From a virus: 43,202 nt of DNA. The notes under the pieces are model-generated. The model did no database searches. It was not told the origin of the DNA and saw only the letters and a list, made by a program, of their open reading frames with translations. Made by a program: the position numbers and the translations under genes. The stretch is from positions 1 to 43,202 of IMG/VR virus record IMGVR_UViG_3300009788_000164, one strand, 5' to 3'. Below, in pieces: positions 3,295 to 41,896 of the stretch (positions within the stretch are counted from its first letter, which is position 1; every line of letters starts with the position of its first letter).

Positions 3295-3459
3295 TTACTC
3301 GATTTCCACTTCTTCTACCCTGCCAAAGTACACTTCTTTTGTACCATTGCAGTTTGGACAAGTAACCATGACTGCATCACCGTTGCCATGGCTTACTACA
3401 ATCTCCCCGTCGTCATTACAACGAATACAAGGTATGTACAAAATAAGTTTGGATGGCAT
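3295..3459 (-). CDS. Small zinc-ribbon protein
   Basis: 54 residues from ATG at 3459 with an AGAGG site upstream. Two CxxC pairs (CIRC at 11-14 and CPNC at 34-37) separated by a short beta region form a classic zinc ribbon similar to DnaJ-type or rubredoxin-like knuckles. Its function is unknown. It is the only Cys-paired small protein in the late block; the rest are in the early block. Confidence 0.6.
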   Translation of the reverse strand: MPSKLILYIPCIRCNDDGEIVVSHGNGDAVMVTCPNCNGTKEVYFGRVEEVEIE

Positions 3460-3471
3460 CAGTTACCTCTC

Positions 3472-4455
3472 TTAGCTCTCATCATGCGTGTGAGCTATGC
3501 CGGTGTTTAAGTTACCAGAACCAGCGTTCATGTAACCACAGAGGTAGAGCTTTGTGTTATCAGCAGCCACCCAGTTAGTGACTAACCCAAACAAACCACC
3601 ACCCTGAATTAAGACATACCCACCTATAGTGTTGGTAACTACCATAGCAACTGTCATTGTAAAGTTGAGGTTGCTATTGATGAATAGACAGTCCTCAAAG
3701 ATGATGTACCTGTCAACACTACCCGTTGGGAAGTTGCAGAACAGTGCGCCAGTAGCACCAGCGTACTTGGTAATGCGACATCTGATGAACTGGTGACGTA
3801 CAGCTGTTGAAGCAAACTGCAACACAGCATTAGCACCTGCACCTGATGTAATAGTGTCCACACCAAATGTGCAGTCCTCCCACGTATTCTCACCATCACC
3901 AGTAACAGTCATACTGGAAGAGCTAGCATGAGCTGCACCTGTAATATGACCTCCACCAGCTATATGACAGTTAGAGAAGTAATTCCTCTGCCCAGTCATA
4001 GCAATCGCTGTATTAGCCGAGCCTGTAGGAAAGTCGTGGAACACATGGACGTTAGACCAGATGCAACCGTTAGCTGTAAAGTCAATCATTGTAGCGACTC
4101 TCGTAGAACCCGAGGCCCACTCGATCTTAGCACGGTTAGCAACCCTACTAGGTGCACAAACACCTATTAGATGCGTAGCGTTCTTAGCCCATACAAGCTG
4201 TGCAGTGATGTATGCAAAACCAGTACTAGCTCCATCACCGATAAGATACACTGTATCGTTCTTACCAGCTGTGCATACGCTATAGGCCTGTGCAATAGTC
4301 TTGAAGGCCTTGCGTACACTCTTACCGTTGTTACCGTCAGCGCCGTTGACGTAGTCAACGAAGTATGCCTGCCCAGTCAGTGGCATCTGAGCACCACCAG
4401 TGATAGGCACACCACCTACAGTAAGAGCACTAAATGCTGAAGGGTTTCCTGACAT
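3472..4455 (-). CDS. Right-handed beta-helix (pectate-lyase-like) virion protein
   Basis: 327 residues. It opens with AYFVDYVNGADGNNGKS, then AFKTIAQAY, the typical lead-in of phage pectate-lyase-fold proteins. It then shows repeated short strands with N/G/C ladders (TANGCIWSNVHVF, RNYFSNCHIAGG, ENTWEDCTFGVD, YIIFEDCLFINSN), as expected of stacked beta-helix coils. Such proteins decorate capsids or serve as fibres that bind or degrade surface sugars. It follows the major capsid protein, separated by a structured 142-bp spacer. Catalytic residues are not evident. Confidence 0.65.
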   Translation of the reverse strand: MSGNPSAFSALTVGGVPITGGAQMPLTGQAYFVDYVNGADGNNGKSVRKAFKTIAQAYSVCTAGKNDTVYLIGDGASTGFAYITAQLVWAKNATHLIGVCAPSRVANRAKIEWASGSTRVATMIDFTANGCIWSNVHVFHDFPTGSANTAIAMTGQRNYFSNCHIAGGGHITGAAHASSSSMTVTGDGENTWEDCTFGVDTITSGAGANAVLQFASTAVRHQFIRCRITKYAGATGALFCNFPTGSVDRYIIFEDCLFINSNLNFTMTVAMVVTNTIGGYVLIQGGGLFGLVTNWVAADNTKLYLCGYMNAGSGNLNTGIAHTHDES

Positions 4456-22060: not shown

Positions 22061-22465
22061 ATGCCAAAAGTATATGATTTCACAGTAGGTAAGAAAGACG
22101 AAGACGGTAACAAAGTGGACATCGGCACGTTTACTATCAATGGCCCTGAGTCCATTGAGGAATGTGTTGAGATGTACGGTGCGGACGTCGCGCTCAATAA
22201 CTGTATGCAGTCAGTTATCATCTCAGCTCAGGCTCTTGCTCGTAGGGTTGCTTCCAAAGAGTCCATTGAGAAGGTTCAGGAGACCCTCAACGCTTACAAG
22301 CCGAAGATTGGCGCCATTCGCGGCGGAACATCGCAATCTGCAATGGTAAAGCTGTTCAAGGACTTAAGTCCGGAAGACCAGGCGAAAGTGCTGGTAGACG
22401 CTGGCGTTACAATTCCTGGCGCAACTGCTCCAGCCGAAGCCACTGAGTCAGAAGCAGTAGCCTAG
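22061..22465 (+). CDS. Early protein sharing a C-terminal motif with 13057
   Basis: 134 residues from ATG at 22061 (AAAGGAGG 8 bases upstream; the longer frame back to 21962 overlaps the previous gene). Beta-rich first half (VDIGTFTINGPESIEECV), then helices and the segment FKDLSPEDQAKVLVDAG, close to FKKLSVEDQAKAMAALEAAG in the product at 13057, and an Ala/Glu tail. Last gene before the structured 380-bp gap. No family recognised. Confidence 0.65.
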   Translation: MPKVYDFTVGKKDEDGNKVDIGTFTINGPESIEECVEMYGADVALNNCMQSVIISAQALARRVASKESIEKVQETLNAYKPKIGAIRGGTSQSAMVKLFKDLSPEDQAKVLVDAGVTIPGATAPAEATESEAVA

Positions 22466-23660: not shown

Positions 23661-24575
23661 ATGCAACTATTAAAGAACATGTCCGAAGCCAAGGGTAGAC
23701 CTTGGACAGACTACACCAATCTCACTCGTCTTATGCGCTGTCCTCGTATGTACTTCTGGCAGAGCATCCAGAAGGTAGACACAACAGGTGAGAAACCTGC
23801 CCTTGTTAATGGTGAAGCTTACCATGAATGTAAGGCTGGATATCTCAAGATGATACTCAATGGCACAGACCACGACACCGCTGTAGCAGCAGCTCTCACG
23901 CTACTCGAACCTATCATGGCACGAATTACTGAACCTGACGACAAGCGGAACATCACTATTGCAACTCAAACCATGTACAATTACTTCCAGACACACAGGG
24001 AAGAAGTATTTGAGGTCATGGAAGTTGAAATCCCCTTCGCTATTGATCTTAATGAGTTCTTGTTTGTAGGCAAGATAGACGCCATCAAGAACTGGCCGGG
24101 CTATGGGATTATGATTGAGGAGACTAAGTCTACCAGTATCATCGGCACTCGCTGGCAGATGCGGGGCAAGCCTAACATGCAGATCGACGGGTATGTAGCT
24201 GCAGCCTTTATATCGTTGGGCAAGATGCCTTATGGCGCACTGCTTGATGTCATTCCTGTCACCAAAGACCCTAACAAGGGCACTAATCAAGCTTTCCGTG
24301 TTATAACTATCCGTAATGAGAAGGATATAGACCTCTGGGTGCAGAATGTTAGATATTGGTGGCAGACGAAGATGGAATACGAAGCGAAGAACTTCTTCCC
24401 TCAGAACACTGAGAACTGTGTACCTCTCATTGGATTCGGCTGTCCATTTACTACCCTCTGCGAGATGTATCCAGACCCTCACAACATGGATGAGATCAAG
24501 CTCCCTGCAGCGTATGAGATTAATGAGTGGGCTCCATTTGAGGAGTTGAAGAAGATAGAAGCGGAGGCTAGGTAA
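23661..24575 (+). CDS. PD-(D/E)XK nuclease (Cas4/RecB-like), probable Fe-S
   Basis: 304 residues. N-terminal WTDYTNLTRLMRCPRMYFWQ is the helix motif of PDDEXK_1-type nucleases. The active site is GKIDAI (136-141) with EETKST (the E-x-K of motif III), followed by a Q-x3-Y motif QIDGY. Cys of RCPR plus NCVPLIGFGCPFTTLC at the end give four Cys as in Cas4/AddB iron-sulphur nucleases. Likely 5'-3' or single-strand exonuclease in a recombination module with the downstream ATPase and DUF669-like protein. Confidence 0.8.
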   Translation: MQLLKNMSEAKGRPWTDYTNLTRLMRCPRMYFWQSIQKVDTTGEKPALVNGEAYHECKAGYLKMILNGTDHDTAVAAALTLLEPIMARITEPDDKRNITIATQTMYNYFQTHREEVFEVMEVEIPFAIDLNEFLFVGKIDAIKNWPGYGIMIEETKSTSIIGTRWQMRGKPNMQIDGYVAAAFISLGKMPYGALLDVIPVTKDPNKGTNQAFRVITIRNEKDIDLWVQNVRYWWQTKMEYEAKNFFPQNTENCVPLIGFGCPFTTLCEMYPDPHNMDEIKLPAAYEINEWAPFEELKKIEAEAR

Positions 24576-25245: not shown

Positions 25246-25393
25246 GCCTACAGAAGCGCAGATAATGATGAATCGTGGAGTCGCTTGCAATGTAGAGGAA
25301 TGCGACTTTCAGCACCACGGTGGGTGTTTAGCTCTTGTTGCCATCATCACCAACGAAGGTTGCATGACTGACAGAAAGTTGATAGAGGACTAG
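25181..25393 (+). CDS. Small Cys-rich protein
   Basis: 70 residues from ATG at 25181 (GGAGG 8 bases upstream). Charged helix (KDEEKPKKNFQRLVEAQAKG), then CNVEECDFQHHGGCLAL and a last Cys in NEGCMTD. Resembles small phage metal-binding proteins. Stops 1 bp before the GTG of the ATPase gene. Confidence 0.5.
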   Translation: MKDEEKPKKNFQRLVEAQAKGEPTEAQIMMNRGVACNVEECDFQHHGGCLALVAIITNEGCMTDRKLIED

Positions 25394-25394
25394 C

Positions 25395-26240
25395 GTGCTA
25401 GCTCTCATTGTAGGTGTGCCTAAGTCAGGTAAGACAGTCAGTGCCCTCACGTTTCCGAAGCCTCTCCTATATGTAGGCTTGGAACCTGAAGGTATTGAGT
25501 CTGTCTATAACGCTAAAGGGGATGATAACAGACTCATTGTACCTACTGTTGAATCTGACAAGATAGACGTCGTCCCTATCATCCGCTCTACTCGCGCTGA
25601 CCTACATCTCAAGACTCCTACCAAGGAAGACTAGAAAGGTACTCAAAAGCCTGCATATGCTAAGGGTGGCTACGATGCCATCATCAAGTGGAATACACTA
25701 GTCAATAGCTTAGACGAGAAAGGCATACCTGACCCTGAACTCATCCAAAATCCTCGTGACCGAGCTCCGCATGGAGGGCCTTATCGTACTCTCGTTATTG
25801 ACTCAGCTACATCCCTCTTCAGGTATCTCAAGGAAGCTATTATGTGGGCTAATAACATGCCACGTCTACGCATTGGCGACTATGGCACACTCGAGGGTAA
25901 CCTGTTTGGTCAGATGATTCCTGACATGCAGCGTATGCTACAGCAGGGTCACTTTGACTGGGTGATTGTAGTTGTGCATGAGGAGTTGTTTCAGGCTGAG
26001 GATTCAAAAGAGATATATGAGCAGCCAGTCGGCCCGTCTCGTGCACAGGGTAGACAGATGTCTAAGGAGTTCTCAGAGTGCTGGCGTCAAGTAGCGAAAG
26101 GGGGCAAGTACATTTGGCGCACTAAACCGCACGGGCACTTCGCCACAGCAGGTTCGAGGCTTCATCTACCAGACAAGATAGACGCAAACTTTAAAGCGCT
26201 GACAGAAGTATTGCCAGCTAGTATGAAACATTTACTTTAA
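25395..26240 (+). pseudogene. RecA-like (AAA_24/Sak4-type) ATPase split by an in-frame TAG
   Basis: A GTG start (GAGG 6 bases upstream) opens an 846-bp frame broken only by TAG at 25632-25634. The first part (79 residues) holds Walker A VGVPKSGKT; the second (202 codons after the TAG) holds Walker B RTLVIDSATSLF, a VIVVVHEELF strand and the C-terminal core. Together about 281 residues, the size of phage Sak4-type RecA-like single-strand annealing ATPases that work with an SSB and a nuclease. The nuclease lies upstream and a DUF669-like gene follows. It could be a readthrough product, a recent mutation or a sequence error. The ATG at 25842 is downstream of Walker B and could not rescue function. 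Confidence 0.75.
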
Positions 26241-27117: not shown

Positions 27118-27374
27118 TGTCTAACTATGACAAAGAGAACAACGCACAGATTCATGTGTTGATACCTAAAGATAATAAACAGGCCCTTGATAAGATGTTA
27201 CCTAAGGGTATGTTGTCTCATATTGTAAGGCAATTCCTCAGACGATTTATTGCCAAGATGCGTTCACCGGATGAAGGCAAGTCGCCATTTGATGCAGCAG
27301 CTGACGAAACAATTGAGAAGTATAAGAAGGAGAGTGGATATGGAATTAAGGGTCAGTCAGATAATAGCGAATAA
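27117..27374 (+). CDS. Possible ribbon-helix-helix protein
   Basis: 85 residues, TAATG overlap. AQIHVLIPKDNKQALDKMLP, then SHIVRQFLRRFI is the strand plus two helices expected of an Arc/MetJ-like DNA-binding fold; a charged flexible C-terminus follows. Its end overlaps the acyl-carrier gene by 35 bp. Fold call is by eye. Confidence 0.5.
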   Translation: MSNYDKENNAQIHVLIPKDNKQALDKMLPKGMLSHIVRQFLRRFIAKMRSPDEGKSPFDAAADETIEKYKKESGYGIKGQSDNSE

Positions 27375-27588
27375 GCTAGAAATAGATATGATGGCTATGT
27401 ATGGAGAAACTACACTGGCCAATTATCTCAACTTAATAGAAGACCTTTGTATGGATAGCTTAGACCATGTTGAATTGATAGTTACTTTTGAAGATGAGTA
27501 TAAGCTTAAGATTTCTGACATAGATGCTGAGCAATGGAAAACAGTTGGCGACATTATTAAGTATCTTAAGACAAAGGGGTGTAAGTAA
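27340..27588 (+). CDS. Acyl-carrier protein
   Basis: 82 residues from ATG at 27340 (AAGGAG 8 bases upstream). MDSLDHVELIVTFEDEYKLK carries the phosphopantetheine serine (Ser40 in DSL) followed by the ACP helix II pattern. ISDIDAEQWKTVGDIIKYL then matches helices III and IV (normally I-P/S-D-x-D-A-E-x-x-x-T-V-x-D-x-x-x-Y). The length is typical of bacterial ACP. Usually it carries acyl chains for lipid synthesis. Why a phage has one is open: lipid remodelling, or a carrier for another ligand. Confidence 0.8.
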   Translation: MELRVSQIIANKLEIDMMAMYGETTLANYLNLIEDLCMDSLDHVELIVTFEDEYKLKISDIDAEQWKTVGDIIKYLKTKGCK

Positions 27589-27821
27589 TGCAATTACAGG
27601 ACCTACTGGACGCACCGATAGCAAGTCTGACTGATGAGCAGGTGGAGTTGCGCCTTGCTGTGTTGAGTCAGCTAAAGTTCCGACCAACGAAGGCTAAGAC
27701 TACATCCAAGGCCTCTACCTCTGCTCCACGTTCTAACAAGGAGAAACAAGCAGCTAGCTTACTCAAGGGTCTTAGCCCTGAGCAATTGAAGAAACTCCAG
27801 GAGGCTATGAATGCCTTATAA
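27588..27821 (+). CDS. Small hypothetical protein with LSPEQ tail
   Basis: 77 residues, TAATG overlap with the ACP gene. Helix at each end joined by a Thr/Ser/Lys-rich linker (TKAKTTSKASTSAPRSNKEK). The end LLKGLSPEQLKKLQEAMNAL recalls the LSxEDQAK ends of the products at 13057 and 22061. Possibly a DNA-binding or adaptor peptide. Confidence 0.5.
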   Translation: MQLQDLLDAPIASLTDEQVELRLAVLSQLKFRPTKAKTTSKASTSAPRSNKEKQAASLLKGLSPEQLKKLQEAMNAL

Positions 27822-29106
27822 CACAGTCGAGCGAGTTGTAGAAGTCCCTGTTAAGGATATAATAGTTGACGACGATAGATTTCGTAAGACCTTCGTGGGT
27901 ATAGAGAGTCTTGCCGAGTCTATTAAGGCTGTAGGTCTTATGAATCCTATTATTGTTAATGAAGACATGCGTCTTATAGCAGGGGAGCGGAGGCTTAAGG
28001 CACATATATTGATGGAGCTCCCTACCATTAAGACTATCATTAGAACGCATGACCAAGTACGTCACCGTGCTCTTGAGATCATTGAAAACCTTGACCGTGA
28101 GAACTTCACATGGGAGGAAGAAGTCCTAGCCACCCAAGAACTTCATAAGCTGATGGGGGCTGAGTATGGGACTGACTGGTCGCAAGCGAAGACTGCAAAG
28201 AAAGCAGGCATTGCAGAAGGAAAAGTCTCGGGCGATCTCAATCTTGCGAAAGCGCTCAAAGAAAACCCTGACATCTTCACTGGGGCTACAGACAAGAAAA
28301 CTGCTTTCAAACGTCTTAAGACATTTAAGATCGAGGAGGCCAGAAACGAAATCGCTCTACGTAAAGCTAAGACAACCGAAGGACTACAAGCGAAGAACCT
28401 CATCTTTCATGGAAATTGTCTGGACCTCATCAGTAATTTACCTGATAAGTCGATTGACGCTATCATCTCCGACCCATTCTATGGTCTCAATATATCAGAT
28501 GTCAAAAAGACAGATGACAAGGCTGGTCAGGATATCTATGAGGATAACAAGGAGTTATACTCAAAGACGATGCTAGAGTTTGTAATGAAGTCGCAACGTG
28601 TAGTACGAGACGACTCATGGGTAGTCATCTTTGGAGCCATTGAGAACTTCCAGTTCTTATACAATCTGCTTACAAGATATGGCTGGAACTGTGACCACAT
28701 GCCCGGCTTCTGGTACAGAGGCAACGTAGGCCAGACCAATGACCCTAACCATCGCTTCGCTCGATGTTATGAGATGTTTATCTATGGCTATCGGGGAGAT
28801 GCAGTGTTGAAGAAACCTGGTTCCTCCTTGGTTCTACAATACAGTGGCGTCAATCCTGCTGAGAAACTCCATGAAGTTCAGAAGCCTCTCGAGCTGATGG
28901 AGGATCTAATTGAGCGCTTCTGCCTCCCTGGTAGCACTATACTAGTCTTCATGTGTGGGTCAGGGACAACTATAGTCGCAGCCATCAGACGCGCATGTAA
29001 GTGTTATGGATTCGAGTTGGATGAGTATAACTATAATCAAGCTGTTGGGAGAGTTACTGAGGCGTTGAAGTTAAAGAACGCTGGACAAGCAGAGTTGATA
29101 AGGTAG
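27811..29106 (+). CDS. ParB/Srx-like domain fused to DNA methyltransferase
   Basis: 431 residues, GGAGG 7 bases before ATG. Residues 8-110 are ParB/Srx-like: VPVKDIIVDDDRFR, GIESLAESIKAVGLMNPIIV, AGERRLKAHI. The C-terminal half is an amino-methyltransferase of the order seen in beta-class enzymes: catalytic DPFYG (221-225, normally DPPY) followed by the SAM-binding F-x-C-GSGTT (from 380). It is likely to modify phage DNA against host restriction. The Phe in place of the second Pro is unusual and may affect activity. Confidence 0.8.
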   Translation: MPYNTVERVVEVPVKDIIVDDDRFRKTFVGIESLAESIKAVGLMNPIIVNEDMRLIAGERRLKAHILMELPTIKTIIRTHDQVRHRALEIIENLDRENFTWEEEVLATQELHKLMGAEYGTDWSQAKTAKKAGIAEGKVSGDLNLAKALKENPDIFTGATDKKTAFKRLKTFKIEEARNEIALRKAKTTEGLQAKNLIFHGNCLDLISNLPDKSIDAIISDPFYGLNISDVKKTDDKAGQDIYEDNKELYSKTMLEFVMKSQRVVRDDSWVVIFGAIENFQFLYNLLTRYGWNCDHMPGFWYRGNVGQTNDPNHRFARCYEMFIYGYRGDAVLKKPGSSLVLQYSGVNPAEKLHEVQKPLELMEDLIERFCLPGSTILVFMCGSGTTIVAAIRRACKCYGFELDEYNYNQAVGRVTEALKLKNAGQAELIR

Positions 29107-29639: not shown

Positions 29640-29809
29640 AGCTCAACTTAAGTAAATCTCGAGAAGAGCTGCGCCCAATTATAACTGACATAATTGACGA
29701 TGCTATGCGCCATTGGAGATGGGGTAACTGGGATATATTTAAGCGATCTAGTTTAGATAAGATGATAACAAAAATCTTTGCTGTTATAAAGAAGAATGCG
29801 GAGGAGTGA
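29636..29809 (+). CDS. Small helical protein before the polymerase gene
   Basis: 57 residues, ATGA overlap with the previous stop and TGATG overlap with the polymerase start. Two helices (REELRPIITDIIDDAMRHW, SSLDKMITKIFAVIKKN) with Trp-rich connector. The last codons supply GGAGG for the polymerase. Role unknown. Confidence 0.5.
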   Translation: MKLNLSKSREELRPIITDIIDDAMRHWRWGNWDIFKRSSLDKMITKIFAVIKKNAEE

Positions 29810-32148
29810 TGCAAGATATTGAACTAGTAGCCCACGTCCCTGCTCAGGGCCCTCGTGACTGCCTCATGGCTCTAGTAGGCGAAGCCCCTGGACGCAATGA
29901 GCTAGTCTCACGTACTCCCTTCACTGGAACCTCAGGCGACTTGCTCAACACAAGTCTCCATCGTGTTGGAGTTGATCGTCAAGGCTGCTATGTGACTAAC
30001 CTCGTCAAGCGCGGGTTAGCTGGCAATGACTTCAGCAAGCTCTGGATAGGCTCAGTCCCTTCACAGGAGCTAGGCTTATGGCGTCAGATGCTGCTTGAGG
30101 AGCTTGACACCCTTGAGACTAACCTCGTAGTAGCCCTTGGAGCCAATGCTCTCTGGGCACTCACTGGAGAGAAGGCCATCTCCAAGTTCCGTGGCTCACT
30201 ATTCATGTGCAAGCTACCATCGGGGCGAGAGATTAAAGTCCTCGCCACTTATCATCCAGCTGCTATACTTCGCCAGTGGGACTGGAAGGCTGCGTTTGAG
30301 TTTGATTTGGTTAGAGCTGTTGAAGAGGCTAAGACACCTGACCTCGTGTTGCCAGAGCGAGAGTATCATATTGCTCCTACATATGAGGAGGCTATGGACT
30401 ACTGCAATATTAACAGTGATCTCACTGGTGAGTTGAGCTATGACATCGAGTGCCAACCGGGGAAGATCATGTGCATTGCATACTCCCGCTCACCGAATGA
30501 AGCCATCTGCATCCCGACAACCACTGAGTATTGGGGTAGTACTGGACGCTTGAAGAATATTCTTGATTACCTTCGCCATGCTATGTCTCCTACACGAATA
30601 GAAAAGGTAGGCCAAAACATCTCCTTTGATATTCAGTATATCATGCGCTTCTTCACTATCTTACCCACTCGCCCCTGGTTCGATACAATGATAGCTCAAC
30701 ACGCTTGCTATAGTGAGATGCCTAAAGGTCTAGCATTTCTCACTAGTATCTATACTAAAGAACCTTACTATAAGGACGAACTCAAAGTTTGGCAAGGTAA
30801 AATGTCTGACCTCGAGACCCTCTGGACATACAACTGTAAAGACGCTGCTGTCACATTAGAGTGCAAGCATGAACTCGAGAAGGAGATGGCTGATCTAGGA
30901 GTGCGTCATACCTATGACTACATGATGGGGCTACTTGAACCACTCCTCTTCATGATGTTAAGGGGCGTACGCATAGATGTAGAAACCCTCGCTTGGCATC
31001 AAAACAGTTATCAGGATTCATTAGCTAAAAGGGAGGCCCACTTTGCAACGGTATATCCTGGCATCAATCCGCACTCGTCTGCTCAGATTAGAAATCTCGT
31101 TTACAATACACTGGGTTTACCTCCAGTGCTGCTTAAGGGTAAACCAACAGCGAACGCAGATGCACTCGAAAAGTTGGCTGTTAAACACCCTGATGTGGCT
31201 GAAGTTCTTGGTATCCGTAAAGACCGTAAAATGCTGTCTACTTATATTGACGTTCCTGTTGACCCAGTTGATAAGCGGATGCGCTTTTCGCTTAACTCGA
31301 CTGGCGCTGAGACTGGACGACTCAGTTCTTCAGGCTCTGTGTTTGGGTCAGGAACCAACCTATCAAACTGGCCTAAGAAAATTCGTGATACAGTCGTGCC
31401 TGAACCTGGAATGGTCTTCACTCAGGCTGACCTCAAAGGTGCGGAAGCACTTGTTGTTATGTATGAAAGCGGGGATGAAGTAGGGATTAAGATGATGGAT
31501 GAAGGTAAGAACATCCATATCCATACAGCTACTGACATCCTCTGGCCGGGGCTCACTGAAGAGGACATCCTTGAAGACCAGAAGAAGGGTAAAGAAGAAG
31601 GCCGTGACCCTATCAAGATTAAGTATGATATAGCCAAGAGGATTAGACATCTATGTAATTACATGGGGAGTTATGTCGCTATTCAACGTGTGCTTAAGTG
31701 TACTGCCCCAGAAGCCAAACGCTACATAGCTGTGTTCATGGCTAAGAACCCACAGATACCGAAGTGGCATAACGAAGTCAAGGACAAGCTCAACCGAGAT
31801 CGTATCATTATCACCTGTCTTGGTCGTAAGAGGATATTCTTTGGTAGATGGGGGCAAGAGCTAATACGTGAAGCTATTGCTTATGGACCTCAGGAGACTG
31901 TAGCTCATGTGCTTAATATTGGACTCAAGAGGGTATATGAGGAGATATGTGTTCATCCAAAGGTTAACATTATCAACCCTGTGTATGACTCTATCCTGCT
32001 TGAACACCCACCCGAGATGGCATCGGAGATACATGCAAGATTACATGAGTTGATGAAAGTGGAGTTAACTATCAAAGGTCGAACCTTCAGTATCCCTGTT
32101 GATATAGAGATGGGAAAGAACTGGAGAGATATGGAGAAGGTGAAATGA
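29809..32148 (+). CDS. Uracil-DNA-glycosylase/DNA polymerase A fusion
   Basis: 779 residues from ATG at 29809. Residues 1-165 are a family-4/5-like uracil-DNA glycosylase: GEAPGRNELVSRTPFTGTSG, YVTNLVKRG, VVALGANAL, TYHPAAILR. Its Fe-S Cys are not evident. Then a 3'-5' exonuclease region (ELSYDIECQPGK; D-x-E near 212) and a family A polymerase: motif A QADLKGAEALVV (Asp541), O-helix RHLCNYMGSY (Tyr618 at the place of E. coli Phe762), motif C VYDSILLE (725). It replicates the phage genome. A glycosylase-like domain joined to a polymerase is known from SPO1-type phages. Confidence 0.85.
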   Translation: MQDIELVAHVPAQGPRDCLMALVGEAPGRNELVSRTPFTGTSGDLLNTSLHRVGVDRQGCYVTNLVKRGLAGNDFSKLWIGSVPSQELGLWRQMLLEELDTLETNLVVALGANALWALTGEKAISKFRGSLFMCKLPSGREIKVLATYHPAAILRQWDWKAAFEFDLVRAVEEAKTPDLVLPEREYHIAPTYEEAMDYCNINSDLTGELSYDIECQPGKIMCIAYSRSPNEAICIPTTTEYWGSTGRLKNILDYLRHAMSPTRIEKVGQNISFDIQYIMRFFTILPTRPWFDTMIAQHACYSEMPKGLAFLTSIYTKEPYYKDELKVWQGKMSDLETLWTYNCKDAAVTLECKHELEKEMADLGVRHTYDYMMGLLEPLLFMMLRGVRIDVETLAWHQNSYQDSLAKREAHFATVYPGINPHSSAQIRNLVYNTLGLPPVLLKGKPTANADALEKLAVKHPDVAEVLGIRKDRKMLSTYIDVPVDPVDKRMRFSLNSTGAETGRLSSSGSVFGSGTNLSNWPKKIRDTVVPEPGMVFTQADLKGAEALVVMYESGDEVGIKMMDEGKNIHIHTATDILWPGLTEEDILEDQKKGKEEGRDPIKIKYDIAKRIRHLCNYMGSYVAIQRVLKCTAPEAKRYIAVFMAKNPQIPKWHNEVKDKLNRDRIIITCLGRKRIFFGRWGQELIREAIAYGPQETVAHVLNIGLKRVYEEICVHPKVNIINPVYDSILLEHPPEMASEIHARLHELMKVELTIKGRTFSIPVDIEMGKNWRDMEKVK

Positions 32149-35748: not shown

Positions 35749-35944
35749 GGAACTAAGTGCATGTCAGAAGTGTGATAATGAAGACAAAGAGTGCACACCT
35801 GAGTGTGAAGACCTTATAGAAGAACTTGCACCTGAACCCTTTACACCTAGACCTTACCTCACTCTTATGCTTCTCTTAATAGCTCTAGCCATCTGCTCTA
35901 TAAGCCTTATGAGCTTGCTATTCTACGTAGGGGTCTTCCCCTGA
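35741..35944 (+). CDS. Small tail-anchored membrane protein
   Basis: 67 residues; GGGAGG before ATG. An acidic N-terminal half with CQKC and CTPEC, then one membrane segment (LTLMLLLIALAICSISLMSL) and a short tail. It ends inside the C-terminal coding sequence of the convergent giant gene (27 bp overlap). Function unknown. Confidence 0.5.
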   Translation: MTEELSACQKCDNEDKECTPECEDLIEELAPEPFTPRPYLTLMLLLIALAICSISLMSLLFYVGVFP

Positions 35945-38900
35945 TGCAAGAGCTATTATATCTATTAACATTCTGCGATGTCCAGGATACATACCGATGG
36001 CAATTTCGTAGAGATTACCGCCATTCTCGGCAGACTTTATACTCTTATTTATCTGGTGTAGCAAGGGCACCCCGAACGTCTTACCAAGTAGCTCACTCGC
36101 TGGCTTTGCCGCACCACGCTTTCCAGACATCCAGTCTGTTACATCATCAACGTAGTCTGCACCAGCACCCAGTAGGCCTCCTCCGTATGCTCCACCGCCT
36201 ATAACAGGGATCTGTTTAATGAACTCGAGCAGAGACGACTTAATCATCTGAAAGGCTCCATCGTCTTTCATATAAGCCTGCCATGCTGCTCTAACAGGTG
36301 CAGGTAATGGACTGTTGATACCTATAAAGTCCTCATAGAACGAGTTGATAAGCGCGCTATAGATTAAGTACATCATAATACGTCTAGTACGCTCTGCCTT
36401 AAGCGCATCTGTGTCCCATACTCTACCCAGCTTTCCATGACGTTTACGTACTGCTAACATCTGTGCATGCTGCTCTATATCTTTCTCCTTTACACCTTTG
36501 TTAAGGAGTTGCCTCTTAACTCCATTGATGTTGTCCTGAGCCTGTTCCAACCCAGGAATTGTCATGCTGTCTGTAAACGCTAGCTCACTAATTAAATGCC
36601 AGAACTCATTAAGCTGGAACGTCTGAAATAATGTCAAGCCTCTACCTACATTAGTACGTTGAATAGGAGCACGAAGGCCTGGAGCTGACCCACCATGGGT
36701 CTTAGCAATCAACCTATCTGCAGCAGTCGCAGCTTGCTTATCACTCAGACCATTGTCCTTACCATACTGAAAAGCTGCTAACCATCCAACCTCAGCAGTC
36801 GCCATGTCAGCATGTTGGATAAAGAAGAACGCGCCTGACTGTAATCTATTACCAGCTAAGGCTAAAGTCTCCACTGCATTCTGTGGTGAAAGGTTACTTA
36901 TATTATTCTTTATCTCCTCCATTATAGCCTCAGGAGTACGTGTAGGTAAATGGTGACTTAATCCTAAACGCCTACGTACTTCAGGGTCTCCCATAAGGTG
37001 GGCTGCTCCCCATTGCTTCAATGCGTTGAAGAAGTAATCATGTCCTATGTTAATAGCTGTAAGGTAGTTCGCAGTAGGCTGAATGATTGCTGTCCTGAGG
37101 ACAAACCCCATAGTGTATGTAGCCACGTTGTTAGTAATACGCCCTATCAACTTGTCCACCCAAGGGGCTACGTTCTCACCAAACTCTTTTCCCTTTTTAG
37201 TGCCAATGATAAAGTCTGCCCAACGGTCTAACTCTGACCTCACATTGACTAAACCTCTATGCTCTAGACTCACAGCCTGTTGAGAGTCTTCTGTTCCAGG
37301 TATAAACATTGTACCAGTTAACTCCCTTGTTGCTGTGATAATAGGGCTAAAGTGCATGTGCTTAGACGCGATGTCTGTATAGGTCTTAAACACTCTGTCA
37401 TACCTCAGCTCAATAGGCTTAGGCCCAGGCTTACGCTCAGTGAAGCTGAACCTAGTTGTCTCTTCACGGTGCATACCCAGATCCCTCTCAGACTCTTCGA
37501 ACATCTCTACAATCTTGGCATAAGGTGCAGTAATTAAGTCGCTAAAGCCTTGATTTAGTCTATCATGCGCTCTAATGAAAGTAAAGTAATCTGATCTGTA
37601 TGGTATAGGATCTTTACCCAACCTCATACGAGTCTTGTTAATAGCTACCCACATGTCGTTGAAGTGTTGATGGCCTAAGTCATACGCTGCCATAGCCTTA
37701 CGATTAGCTGCAGTCCTTTGGTATATCTCATCGACCTTAACACCCTTACTAATAAGATACTCTCTCATCTTAGGTGTGTCCTTCACTGCAGCATATATAC
37801 CCAGATCATATGTGTTAACTCCTCGAAGAGCTGCAGTCATAGAGCTTAGTATTCGCTCTGTGTATTGTCTATGTAGTGTTAATGCTACTTGATACCTGTC
37901 GGCAAGCTTCGCAAATCCAACGCCAGGCATCATCTTATCCATTGACTCAAAGATATAGTAGATCGGCTTAGATCTAAACACCTTCATATCAGCCCCTTTG
38001 TAAGCAGCTATAGCTACTACCATATCCCTTGTAGTGAGGATGCCTTTTCGACCCTTCTGTTGACCGCTTACTTTAACATGCGCCATTTGAGCGCCCTGCG
38101 AACCTCCAGTGTCAGATACTAGAGCATACCTCCACCCGAACTTGGCATTAGCTCTAGCATCAGCAGGTAGAGACTTGCGCCATTGACTCATTGTCATACC
38201 CTTGTTCCTAGCCTCACCTGCAGACTCAGCTAATGCCTCAACCTCTGATGTTGGCGAAGCTATCCACTGTGCAGTAGTGCGAAGCTTAGTAGGGAGAGAA
38301 GCAGCTACATCGTTGAGAGCTCGACTTAGAGCACCGACTATGTCTTCATAATCCTGGGCAAGATTGCTTTCGTTGAGAGAGTCTATGATACCTACAAGTT
38401 GCATTGTAATGGCCTCAGCATCAGCCTTCACTGCAGACTTGCTAAACTCACTGATATCCTCAAGATGTTCAATAGACTCTGCCACAGCTGCAGCTTGTCT
38501 CAATGCTGTATCAAGGGCCTTTCTTATATCCTTTACTGCAGCCTTATCCATAAGCTGTGGAGTAGTGTGAGCGTTGATGCTGTTCTTAATCTGCACATTA
38601 ACACTCTCAAGCTCCTTAAACACAACCTCATCAATGATACTACGCAGTATCGCTAGAGGGTCTGCAGTCTTCTTATTCATCATAGGAAACACTACATCAT
38701 CAAACTGGGCAAGTAGATCTTCCTTCGCTTGTATTCTAGACTTCTGGTCATACTTGTTTGCCCACTTGGTAATATCCCTGAACTTCCTTCTGACTTCACG
38801 CCAGCCCATTTTCTTCGTGCTAGTATCGTTCACCGGCTGAGTGGTAGTATCAATTGGTTCCATAGCCTTACCACGCTTAAACATAGACAAACGTTTCTTA

Positions 38901-41896
38901 GCATAGTCGAGCTGGAGCTCAAGGTCAACGAGCTCCTCATCAAGCTCCCTTACCTGTTGCTCTTCCATAGCTGCAGCCTTATCAGCGATTCGTCCTTCAA
39001 TAGTCGCAATGGCTTTAACAAGACCTTGCTCATTTAGATCACGCAGGCCAGGCTTATACTTGACTACTGCGTCCATTGTAATACCTTCGATTGGAGGCAA
39101 TAGAGATATATCACCGTAGTCTTCTATAAAGTCAAGGGCATCATCCTCAGATATATTCATCTGGCCTTGTAACCACTTGACTATATCTTTCACCACAGCC
39201 TTATCAGTAGCCTTCACAAAGTCGACCATATCTTCAGCTATAACCTCAAGCGCTTCAGGGTCATTGGTGAGCTCGGCGTAGTCTCTTAGCACTACCTTTG
39301 GTTTAGCAGGAGCCTTGGGCTTAGCCTTCGCTTTAGGCTTTGGCGCTGGCGCTGGAGTCGGCTTAACCTCAATCTTCTCTCCAAGCACTTGCTCAAAGAA
39401 TGGAGCTAAGTCCTCTCTCACTTGAGGGTATACGTTCTCAATGAATGGAATCCTCTGTTTGATGAACTCTAGCACTTTATCAAATATGCTATTGAGTTTT
39501 GCGTTAGGAGATATGTACTCTCTAGTCGTATACAGCACAAACTGGTGAGCGAGGAATTCTTCATCTTCAGATAGGTATGAAGCTGAACCTTCTGGGAGCC
39601 CTGCATCTCTCCATACACCAAAGCGCTCCTGTTTTGAAATAGATTCAACAATACTTCTAGCTTTATCTGCATCAGTTTTACTAGCTTTATGATGAAGCCA
39701 AGCATGTAATGACTCATGTAAAAATGTAGTAAGCCCTTCACCTTTGTCTCTTTCACCTTGACGAAGGATATTAGCAGGCATTCTTATAATAGGAACGAAG
39801 GGAGATGTTTCACCTAATACTCCAGCACCAACATCTTCTACTTCCAATGCTAGGTCTTCACCCACTTGTCTACCTGCATACATCTCCTTAAGCGCTGCAA
39901 CTTGTTCAACTTCCAATGAATTCTGTTCAAACAGGTCTTGCCAATATTGTAATAGCGAAGCATGACCATCACTAATATTAGCAAAGTCAAAGTCACTTAT
40001 AGTCTCGCCTTTAGCACGAACGGATTTAGGGTCAAGTGTTTTCTTATACTCAGCAATCTTCTGTTTCTTGTTCTTCATATTAGTATCGTAAGCTGCTATA
40101 TCGGTTAATGTGCTTGCGATACCAACTTTATCTCGCAGCAACTTCTCAATAGTGAAAAACGCTACATCGTCTTTAGTGCCTTCAGTGCGTACGTTGTTAA
40201 TTGTACTTTGTACATCTGTCCTCAATTTCTTTAACTTACCCACAGCAAGTGCCGCTACATTCTTACTCGCTAATATTTGGTCAATGCCTTCTAATACTTG
40301 ATTAGCTATTACTTCTATTGTTTTAACAGGCGTGGTAGATTTGGCTTCCTCTTTAGGCTTAGCCTTCTTTTCCACTTCGGGCTCCACCTTAGGCTCAGCT
40401 TTGACTGGCTCTTCAACTGGCTTAACCTCTTCTTTAACCACTTTGTCTCTAGCCTTCTGCGTCGCTTTAATATCGTCCATTCTCTTCTGCATACCCACAA
40501 TCTCAGCGTGAGCTGCTATCTCCTCTTTACTTAGCCCTTGCTCAGACAGCTCTCGCTTCTTATCATTAAGCGCGAAGAGAATATCCTGTTCCTCAGTCAA
40601 CTCAGGTTGAGCTGCCCCCTCAAACGCACCAGCTTTCTCCAAATTATCTAGTTCTCTATCTGCCTCTTCTTCCATTGCAGTCTCTACCTGTTCACGAATC
40701 TTATCTTTAACCTTATTATACTTTGTATCAATAGTCATTGCTACCTTATCTATCAACCTCTGTGCTTGAGGGTGCTCATCTTTATCTATAAGACCTTTGA
40801 TATCATCAAGTTGCATTTGTTCAGCTCTACCAAGCTCACCGTAGAACTTATTCAATACTTCATACTCATTCTCAATACCCTTTCTATAACGTGTCTCAAC
40901 TGAGGAATTGTACGCTATACCTATACCTCCAAGCATAGATAACCCTATAGTCGCTGGAAGAACATTGAAAGATTGAAAGACTGTCTCCTTCAACTTGTCT
41001 CCTACTAAATATCCATTAAGCCATTCCTCAGACATTTCCTCGACAGACTCCCATGCACCAACTCTAAGAATCTTAGCAGCAACTGAACCTGTAGCCACTT
41101 TACCTGCAGAACCAAACAACGCTGGAGCAAGACCTATAAACCTCGTACCAGCAGCTACATAGGCGAACATTTTGAGATAGCCCTTATATGCCTCACGTTG
41201 GGTCATGCCCTTATCAATCATAGCATCATAAGTACCTGCAGCTTCCATACCACCGTTTAGCACTGACATCACTGTTAGGCCTACAGTAGGACTCTTAGTC
41301 ACAGTTGCAGCACCTGCACTAAGTACTAAATTAGGTAACATTGAGCCACCACCTGACAGTATGCTATACATCAGGTATGACGGGTCTGTAGCAAGGTCCC
41401 ATCTAACATTGCCATCTTTGTCTACTATCTGCTGTCGGAAGAATGGGTCTCCGTTTCTTATTACATCCTGGAGCTTATTATTGAAGTGCTCTGCTATCTT
41501 ACCATAGCCTAATTCAAGCGTTTCAGCTACTTCTTTTACTACTCCCGATATTGGTCGTAATGTCTGTCTTACATAGTTTAGATGGTCGTCTAATTTAATA
41601 GCCCCAGCACCGTTTCTTTGCGCGTTAGCAGAGGTAAGATAGTTGCCTTTGTAGATGTCCTCAAATTCTTGAGCAACGACACCTGTAGCAACTTGGCCTA
41701 CTCTTGCCGCACCAGTTGCAAATCTCTGTGGGAGTTCCTCTAGTCCCTGAGCTAGTGCACCCTTAGGGTCTGGTCTAAGCCCAAGCACCTGGGATAATAG
41801 TTCACCCTTACGTGCTTCGACTTCCTCTTGAATACTAGTAGGAACTAACCCTAGTTGCCGAGCGAGGGATTCTCCTCTGCCTATACCATTGCTCAT
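35918..41896 (-). CDS. Giant polyvalent virion-type protein with HExxH protease motif
   Basis: 1992 residues. Regions: about 1-330 hydrophobic/Gly-Ala-rich segments (LVLSAGAATVTKSPTVGLTV) that may insert into membranes; 350-560 charged coil and Lys/Glu/Pro linker; 600-800 a zincin-like domain with HESLH (His727-His731) and a downstream acidic EDEEFLAH; a Pro/Lys/Ala linker near 845; then a long helical part to the end. These traits match phage polyvalent/internal virion proteins that are ejected into the host ahead of DNA. The C-terminal part is hydrophobic (IPVIGGGAYGGGLLGAG). Family assignment of the helical part is not made. Confidence 0.7.
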   Translation of the reverse strand: MSNGIGRGESLARQLGLVPTSIQEEVEARKGELLSQVLGLRPDPKGALAQGLEELPQRFATGAARVGQVATGVVAQEFEDIYKGNYLTSANAQRNGAGAIKLDDHLNYVRQTLRPISGVVKEVAETLELGYGKIAEHFNNKLQDVIRNGDPFFRQQIVDKDGNVRWDLATDPSYLMYSILSGGGSMLPNLVLSAGAATVTKSPTVGLTVMSVLNGGMEAAGTYDAMIDKGMTQREAYKGYLKMFAYVAAGTRFIGLAPALFGSAGKVATGSVAAKILRVGAWESVEEMSEEWLNGYLVGDKLKETVFQSFNVLPATIGLSMLGGIGIAYNSSVETRYRKGIENEYEVLNKFYGELGRAEQMQLDDIKGLIDKDEHPQAQRLIDKVAMTIDTKYNKVKDKIREQVETAMEEEADRELDNLEKAGAFEGAAQPELTEEQDILFALNDKKRELSEQGLSKEEIAAHAEIVGMQKRMDDIKATQKARDKVVKEEVKPVEEPVKAEPKVEPEVEKKAKPKEEAKSTTPVKTIEVIANQVLEGIDQILASKNVAALAVGKLKKLRTDVQSTINNVRTEGTKDDVAFFTIEKLLRDKVGIASTLTDIAAYDTNMKNKKQKIAEYKKTLDPKSVRAKGETISDFDFANISDGHASLLQYWQDLFEQNSLEVEQVAALKEMYAGRQVGEDLALEVEDVGAGVLGETSPFVPIIRMPANILRQGERDKGEGLTTFLHESLHAWLHHKASKTDADKARSIVESISKQERFGVWRDAGLPEGSASYLSEDEEFLAHQFVLYTTREYISPNAKLNSIFDKVLEFIKQRIPFIENVYPQVREDLAPFFEQVLGEKIEVKPTPAPAPKPKAKAKPKAPAKPKVVLRDYAELTNDPEALEVIAEDMVDFVKATDKAVVKDIVKWLQGQMNISEDDALDFIEDYGDISLLPPIEGITMDAVVKYKPGLRDLNEQGLVKAIATIEGRIADKAAAMEEQQVRELDEELVDLELQLDYAKKRLSMFKRGKAMEPIDTTTQPVNDTSTKKMGWREVRRKFRDITKWANKYDQKSRIQAKEDLLAQFDDVVFPMMNKKTADPLAILRSIIDEVVFKELESVNVQIKNSINAHTTPQLMDKAAVKDIRKALDTALRQAAAVAESIEHLEDISEFSKSAVKADAEAITMQLVGIIDSLNESNLAQDYEDIVGALSRALNDVAASLPTKLRTTAQWIASPTSEVEALAESAGEARNKGMTMSQWRKSLPADARANAKFGWRYALVSDTGGSQGAQMAHVKVSGQQKGRKGILTTRDMVVAIAAYKGADMKVFRSKPIYYIFESMDKMMPGVGFAKLADRYQVALTLHRQYTERILSSMTAALRGVNTYDLGIYAAVKDTPKMREYLISKGVKVDEIYQRTAANRKAMAAYDLGHQHFNDMWVAINKTRMRLGKDPIPYRSDYFTFIRAHDRLNQGFSDLITAPYAKIVEMFEESERDLGMHREETTRFSFTERKPGPKPIELRYDRVFKTYTDIASKHMHFSPIITATRELTGTMFIPGTEDSQQAVSLEHRGLVNVRSELDRWADFIIGTKKGKEFGENVAPWVDKLIGRITNNVATYTMGFVLRTAIIQPTANYLTAINIGHDYFFNALKQWGAAHLMGDPEVRRRLGLSHHLPTRTPEAIMEEIKNNISNLSPQNAVETLALAGNRLQSGAFFFIQHADMATAEVGWLAAFQYGKDNGLSDKQAATAADRLIAKTHGGSAPGLRAPIQRTNVGRGLTLFQTFQLNEFWHLISELAFTDSMTIPGLEQAQDNINGVKRQLLNKGVKEKDIEQHAQMLAVRKRHGKLGRVWDTDALKAERTRRIMMYLIYSALINSFYEDFIGINSPLPAPVRAAWQAYMKDDGAFQMIKSSLLEFIKQIPVIGGGAYGGGLLGAGADYVDDVTDWMSGKRGAAKPASELLGKTFGVPLLHQINKSIKSAENGGNLYEIAIGMYPGHRRMLIDIIALASGEDPYVE

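Follow-up and report, generated by a model that had tools for sequence, protein, structure and literature searches.

The locus at 25395-26240 on the plus strand of a tailed-phage genome is, judged from its sequence, a gene of the Sak4/AAA_24 family, and this copy is interrupted by a single in-frame TAG. The window, that is, the whole stretch of DNA analyzed, is the complete IMG/VR virus record of 43,202 bases. We consider it very probable that this is an ordinary Sak4-type recombinase gene with an isolated nonsense codon, which is either a recent allele without function or a single-base error in the consensus, because none of about 70 full-length relatives has a stop. Between these two we lean slightly toward a real allele. 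The original prediction had raised a rare control of a phage recombinase, for which no positive evidence emerged, the stop being unconserved and no recoding signal having been found in the record; the gene is divergent but ordinary.

The interrupted Sak4 gene

Translation of the frame gives 79 residues, the TAG, 201 residues and a terminal TAA, or a 281-residue protein when the TAG is read through. The 5' part (25395-25631, plus strand; 79 codons from a GTG start) holds Walker A, GVPKSGKT, at residues 7-14 (25413-25436), and matches both phrog_124 and PF13479. The TAG follows as codon 80 (25632-25634, plus strand), in the loop between Walker A and Walker B. The 3' part (25635-26240, plus strand; 201 codons and TAA) holds Walker B, TLVID, at residues 132-136 (25788-25802), and its first in-frame ATG is at 25842. 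This order of motifs around the stop, visible in the translation, is the one originally described. Both K13 (Walker A) and D136 (Walker B) are identical in all 55 aligned sequences.

The marks of family membership, a whole-protein profile match and the Walker motifs in a RecA-like core, are present, and an intact reading frame is absent. The read-through protein matches AAA_24 (PF13479) at 7e-9, with 36.2 bits against a cut-off of 27, and Sak4-like phrog_124 at 5e-12; phrog_124 is also matched by either half alone, the 3' part at 1.6e-6. These profiles and the relatives agree on the predicted identity as a RecA-like ATPase. Codon statistics support the frame on either side of the TAG (the remaining two frames contain 13 and 30 stops) and, with a tblastn alignment that runs across the TAG, bear out the view that the frame is clean on both sides. 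A chance open reading frame is excluded, since the tblastn alignment to the closest relative covers residues 1-273 (E 3e-50). The start at 25395 is supported by three relatives (L013, L015 and L016), in which an ATG stands in place of the window's GTG, and the first residue of the relatives' Sak4 coincides with it.

The Sak4 single-strand annealing proteins of HK620, PA73, phi11 and 52A (PHROG 124, Pfam AAA_24) belong to the same sequence family, with a RecA/RAD51 fold. The window gene resembles them in its Walker A and B motifs and its adjoining exonuclease gene, but differs in being divergent (33-40% identity to its closest relatives) and interrupted by TAG. By family, its product is predicted to be an ATP-dependent single-strand annealing protein, an activity known for HK620 Sak4 (PMC5928155). 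PMC5928155 also cites a PA73 Sak4 altered in Walker A that retained part of its recombineering activity. The exonuclease gene, of the PD-(D/E)XK type (23661-24575, plus strand; PF12705 at 1.4e-10, phrog_1218), is the usual neighbor of Sak4 in relatives, and the order is kept in L005, L010 and L011. On its other side the Sak4 gene is followed by a ParB-methyltransferase/polymerase block. Replication genes lie together on the plus strand of the record and structural genes on the minus strand.

Intact relatives and the place of the TAG

As the sole query, the Sak4 protein found no relative in IMG/VR and phage records, and no match among named phage records at 1e-5. Relatives were instead reached through the adjoining DNA polymerase, whose alignment with three syntenic phages served as the query and returned 80 records. 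Four of these have 46-49% polymerase identity, and their Sak4 proteins align from the first residue to 273-275 (E 3e-50 to 2e-31) with no stop. A fifth close relative, L095, at 33% Sak4 identity, was recovered with a Sak4 alignment. In all five (33-40% identity) the frame is open across the TAG site. An iterated profile search extended the Sak4 frame to 85 loci, which leave about 70 full-length frames once duplicates and frames cut by the end of a locus are removed, and an internal stop occurs in 0 of these homologues. PF13479 was found in 47 of the 49 records searched, the window included, and only in the window does a stop fall within the match. Some other records show additional stops with phrog_124; these appear to arise where the profile extends past the gene end, and they are missing from the PF13479 matches of the same records.

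Other routes to relatives gave little. A DNA pattern spanning the TAG site had no second copy among IMG/VR viral contigs, and a scan of genome contigs with one alignment (A3) found no relative. Queries with terL and capsid gave two fragments only, at 59-60% and lacking Sak4, or nothing.

Among the aligned homologues, the residue at the TAG site falls in a loop column occupied in only 4 of 55 rows. The model of the read-through protein has a pLDDT of 89.7 and a pTM of 0.89, with its weakest block at residues 71-80 (pLDDT 62), and in the PDB Foldseek matches it best to RAD51 paralogues, RadA, RecA and KaiC. The rarely occupied column and the well-folding model point to a Sak4 frame that is otherwise intact. 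Judged by alignment and model, the motifs are like those of intact relatives and the stop lies in a tolerant place. Such a place is only a weak hint of a translated codon, since 16 of the 281 residues have equally low occupancy, as do three among the 49 codons that are a single substitution away from TAG. An insertion element, an intron and translational bypass at the TAG were also considered and rejected; the loop is not an inserted element, because the closest relatives have most of it.

Stop codon usage and a second interrupted gene

TAG is an ordinary stop elsewhere in the record, as originally noted: it terminates genes at 22463-22465 and 25391-25393, and closes 15 of the 56 predicted genes in our working list (TAA 28, TGA 13). 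A second stop lies within 12 codons of the end in 13 of the 15 TAG-terminated genes. Other conserved genes aligned to relatives (portal, terL, capsid, polymerase, methyltransferase) contain no internal TAG, which, with the frequency of TAG as a terminator, upholds the earlier judgment that a global code change is not the explanation. The exception among conserved genes otherwise free of internal stops is a TAA in a terS-like gene.

This gene lies upstream of terL (12691-12011, minus strand) and is split by an in-frame TAA at 12412-12410, directly followed by ATG. It came to light when window genes were checked against fuller pieces of three relatives (L101, L103 and L099), each of which has a single open frame across the site at 31-39% identity. 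Its 3' part weakly matches the terminase small subunit profile phrog_2538 (E 0.0024). In all three relatives an Arg stands where the window has the restart Met, so the split may reflect genuine stop-restart fission rather than an error; alternatively, it is possibly a second lesion of the record.

As a control, we counted in 91 sequences the stops bridged in a sense-frame gene by at least two other records. The window has two, the Sak4 TAG and the terS-like TAA, in the 15.8 kb covered, and about 895 kb of relatives have none after a hand review that dropped stops lying antisense, in another frame or at the end of a gene, which makes the comparison a rough one. The stops not counted included one in L092, antisense to its Sak4, one in L012 at an annotated gene end, and one in L027 at the end of an HNH-like gene. 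In L027 (about 3326-4447) a TGA parts two adjacent HNH-like frames, which are continuous in its near-identical counterpart L026. Judged against these relatives, a pair of stops like that of the window seems unusual for a single record. Falling in conserved genes, the two stops raise the chance of a poor-quality record or of defective genomes, and two interrupted genes fit poor or degenerate sequence, with suppression by the host a minor possibility.

Origin and consequences of the stop

We propose that ribosomes would halt at codon 80 and release a 79-residue fragment with Walker A only. A complete ATPase would not be made from the interrupted copy, because the next in-frame ATG, GTG or TTG comes after Walker B; it is reasonable to suppose, as did the original prediction, that neither putative half would be active alone. 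The TAG itself would have arisen either within the sampled phage population, as an allele that abolishes function, or in the metagenomic consensus, as a one-base error. Function has thus probably been lost, and recently, since the remaining frame is intact. Besides the cost that a null allele should have, taken up below, two points count against this explanation. A second in-frame stop in a conserved gene of the record exceeds what one stray event predicts, and the TAG lies in a loop that tolerates change, so that its translation would hardly be harmful, although this is only a weak hint. Of the four options originally left open (readthrough, suppression, mutation and error), the intact relatives favor mutation or error, and readthrough and suppression are left with neither a recoding signal nor a tRNA found in the record.

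Suppression would require that the host, or a part of the phage outside the record, supply a UAG-reading tRNA of useful efficiency, giving full-length Sak4. The intact frame beyond the TAG, the tolerant loop and the TAA in a second conserved gene are in keeping with this, and no terminal direct repeat was found in the 43,202-base record, which may be incomplete. However, the suppressor tRNA search suggested earlier turned up no tRNA gene in the window, and 25 related loci hold a single tRNA-Gln(ttg). Further, TAG and TAA together close 43 of the 56 predicted genes, which efficient suppression would lengthen, and we regard suppression as unlikely. It is in our estimation quite unlikely that the host reads some stops through and that full Sak4 (TAG) and terS-like (TAA) proteins thus depend on a host or state with suppression. 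Some crAss-like phages are known to use a changed code in which TAG specifies an amino acid. These TAG-recoded phages (genetic code 15; crAss-like, PMC9523058; phAss-1, PMC10607447) likewise have in-frame TAG in phage genes, but recode it genome-wide (41 ORFs in phAss-1), whereas the window has it in one gene, uses TAG as a frequent terminator and, in a possibly incomplete record, shows no suppressor tRNA. This stop usage, and the alignment of other conserved genes free of internal stops save the terS-like TAA, exclude a changed code in practice.

Programmed readthrough, in which a local signal lets some ribosomes past the TAG and sets the ratio of short to full-length product, could draw on the frame being open on either side and on the 100 nt from the TAG, whose fold is somewhat more stable than that of shuffled sequences (z -1.84; 9 of 200). 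However, this is the top score among seven stretches, and the Walker A region, taken as a control, comes close to it (z -1.74). The locus has no Rfam match, the short product would comprise only part of an ATPase domain, and no relative has a stop here or at any other internal site, so that the conservation expected of a programmed signal is absent; we find this reading very unlikely. Gene fission, with two Sak4 parts made separately and then assembling, appears highly improbable. It is conceivable for the terS-like gene of the same record, where ATG directly follows the TAA, but in sak4 no in-frame ATG, GTG or TTG occurs between the TAG and 25842, a position past Walker B. A split ATPase made by restart is therefore unlikely on the sequence, and translation of a separate piece from residue 80 on would have to begin at an unusual start codon.

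If the stop is real, the nonsense codon would be a null allele of a usually important recombinase in a phage population. Such an allele should be costly, because staphylococcal phage phi11 requires Sak4 for growth and reproduction (PMC5499656, PMC5928155). Yet a real null allele of sak4 would not be absurd. PMC5499656 reports that mutations in phi31 Sak4 allow the phage to grow on Lactococcus carrying AbiK, and a phage satellite repressor protein inhibits Sak4 (PMC11846896); for these reasons null alleles could matter. The phi31 mutants are likewise altered Sak4 alleles in a phage population and suggest a possible reason for a real null allele, but in that case both the AbiK defense and the Lactococcus host are known. 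If the stop is an error, the lesson is that one isolated in-frame stop in a phage record from a metagenome is no proof of recoding unless reads or relatives support it. More general importance would attach only to suppression, the reading judged unlikely above.

Several other genes of the record deserve mention. On the minus strand, 35918-41896 encodes a 1992-residue protein that has no Pfam match and weakly matches a PHROG whose function is unknown. In the replication block, 27811-29106 (plus strand) encodes a ParB-like domain fused with an N6/N4 DNA methyltransferase (PF02195, PF01555); in L005, L006 and L007 the gene occupying this position before the polymerase carries a methylase or ParB-like annotation. 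The polymerase (29806-32148, plus strand) is of family A and is fused to a uracil-DNA glycosylase domain at its N-terminus and to a 3'-5' exonuclease domain (PF03167, PF01612, PF00476). The same block contains a small protein (27337-27588, plus strand) with a phosphopantetheine-attachment domain like that of acyl carrier proteins (PF00550, 5e-7).
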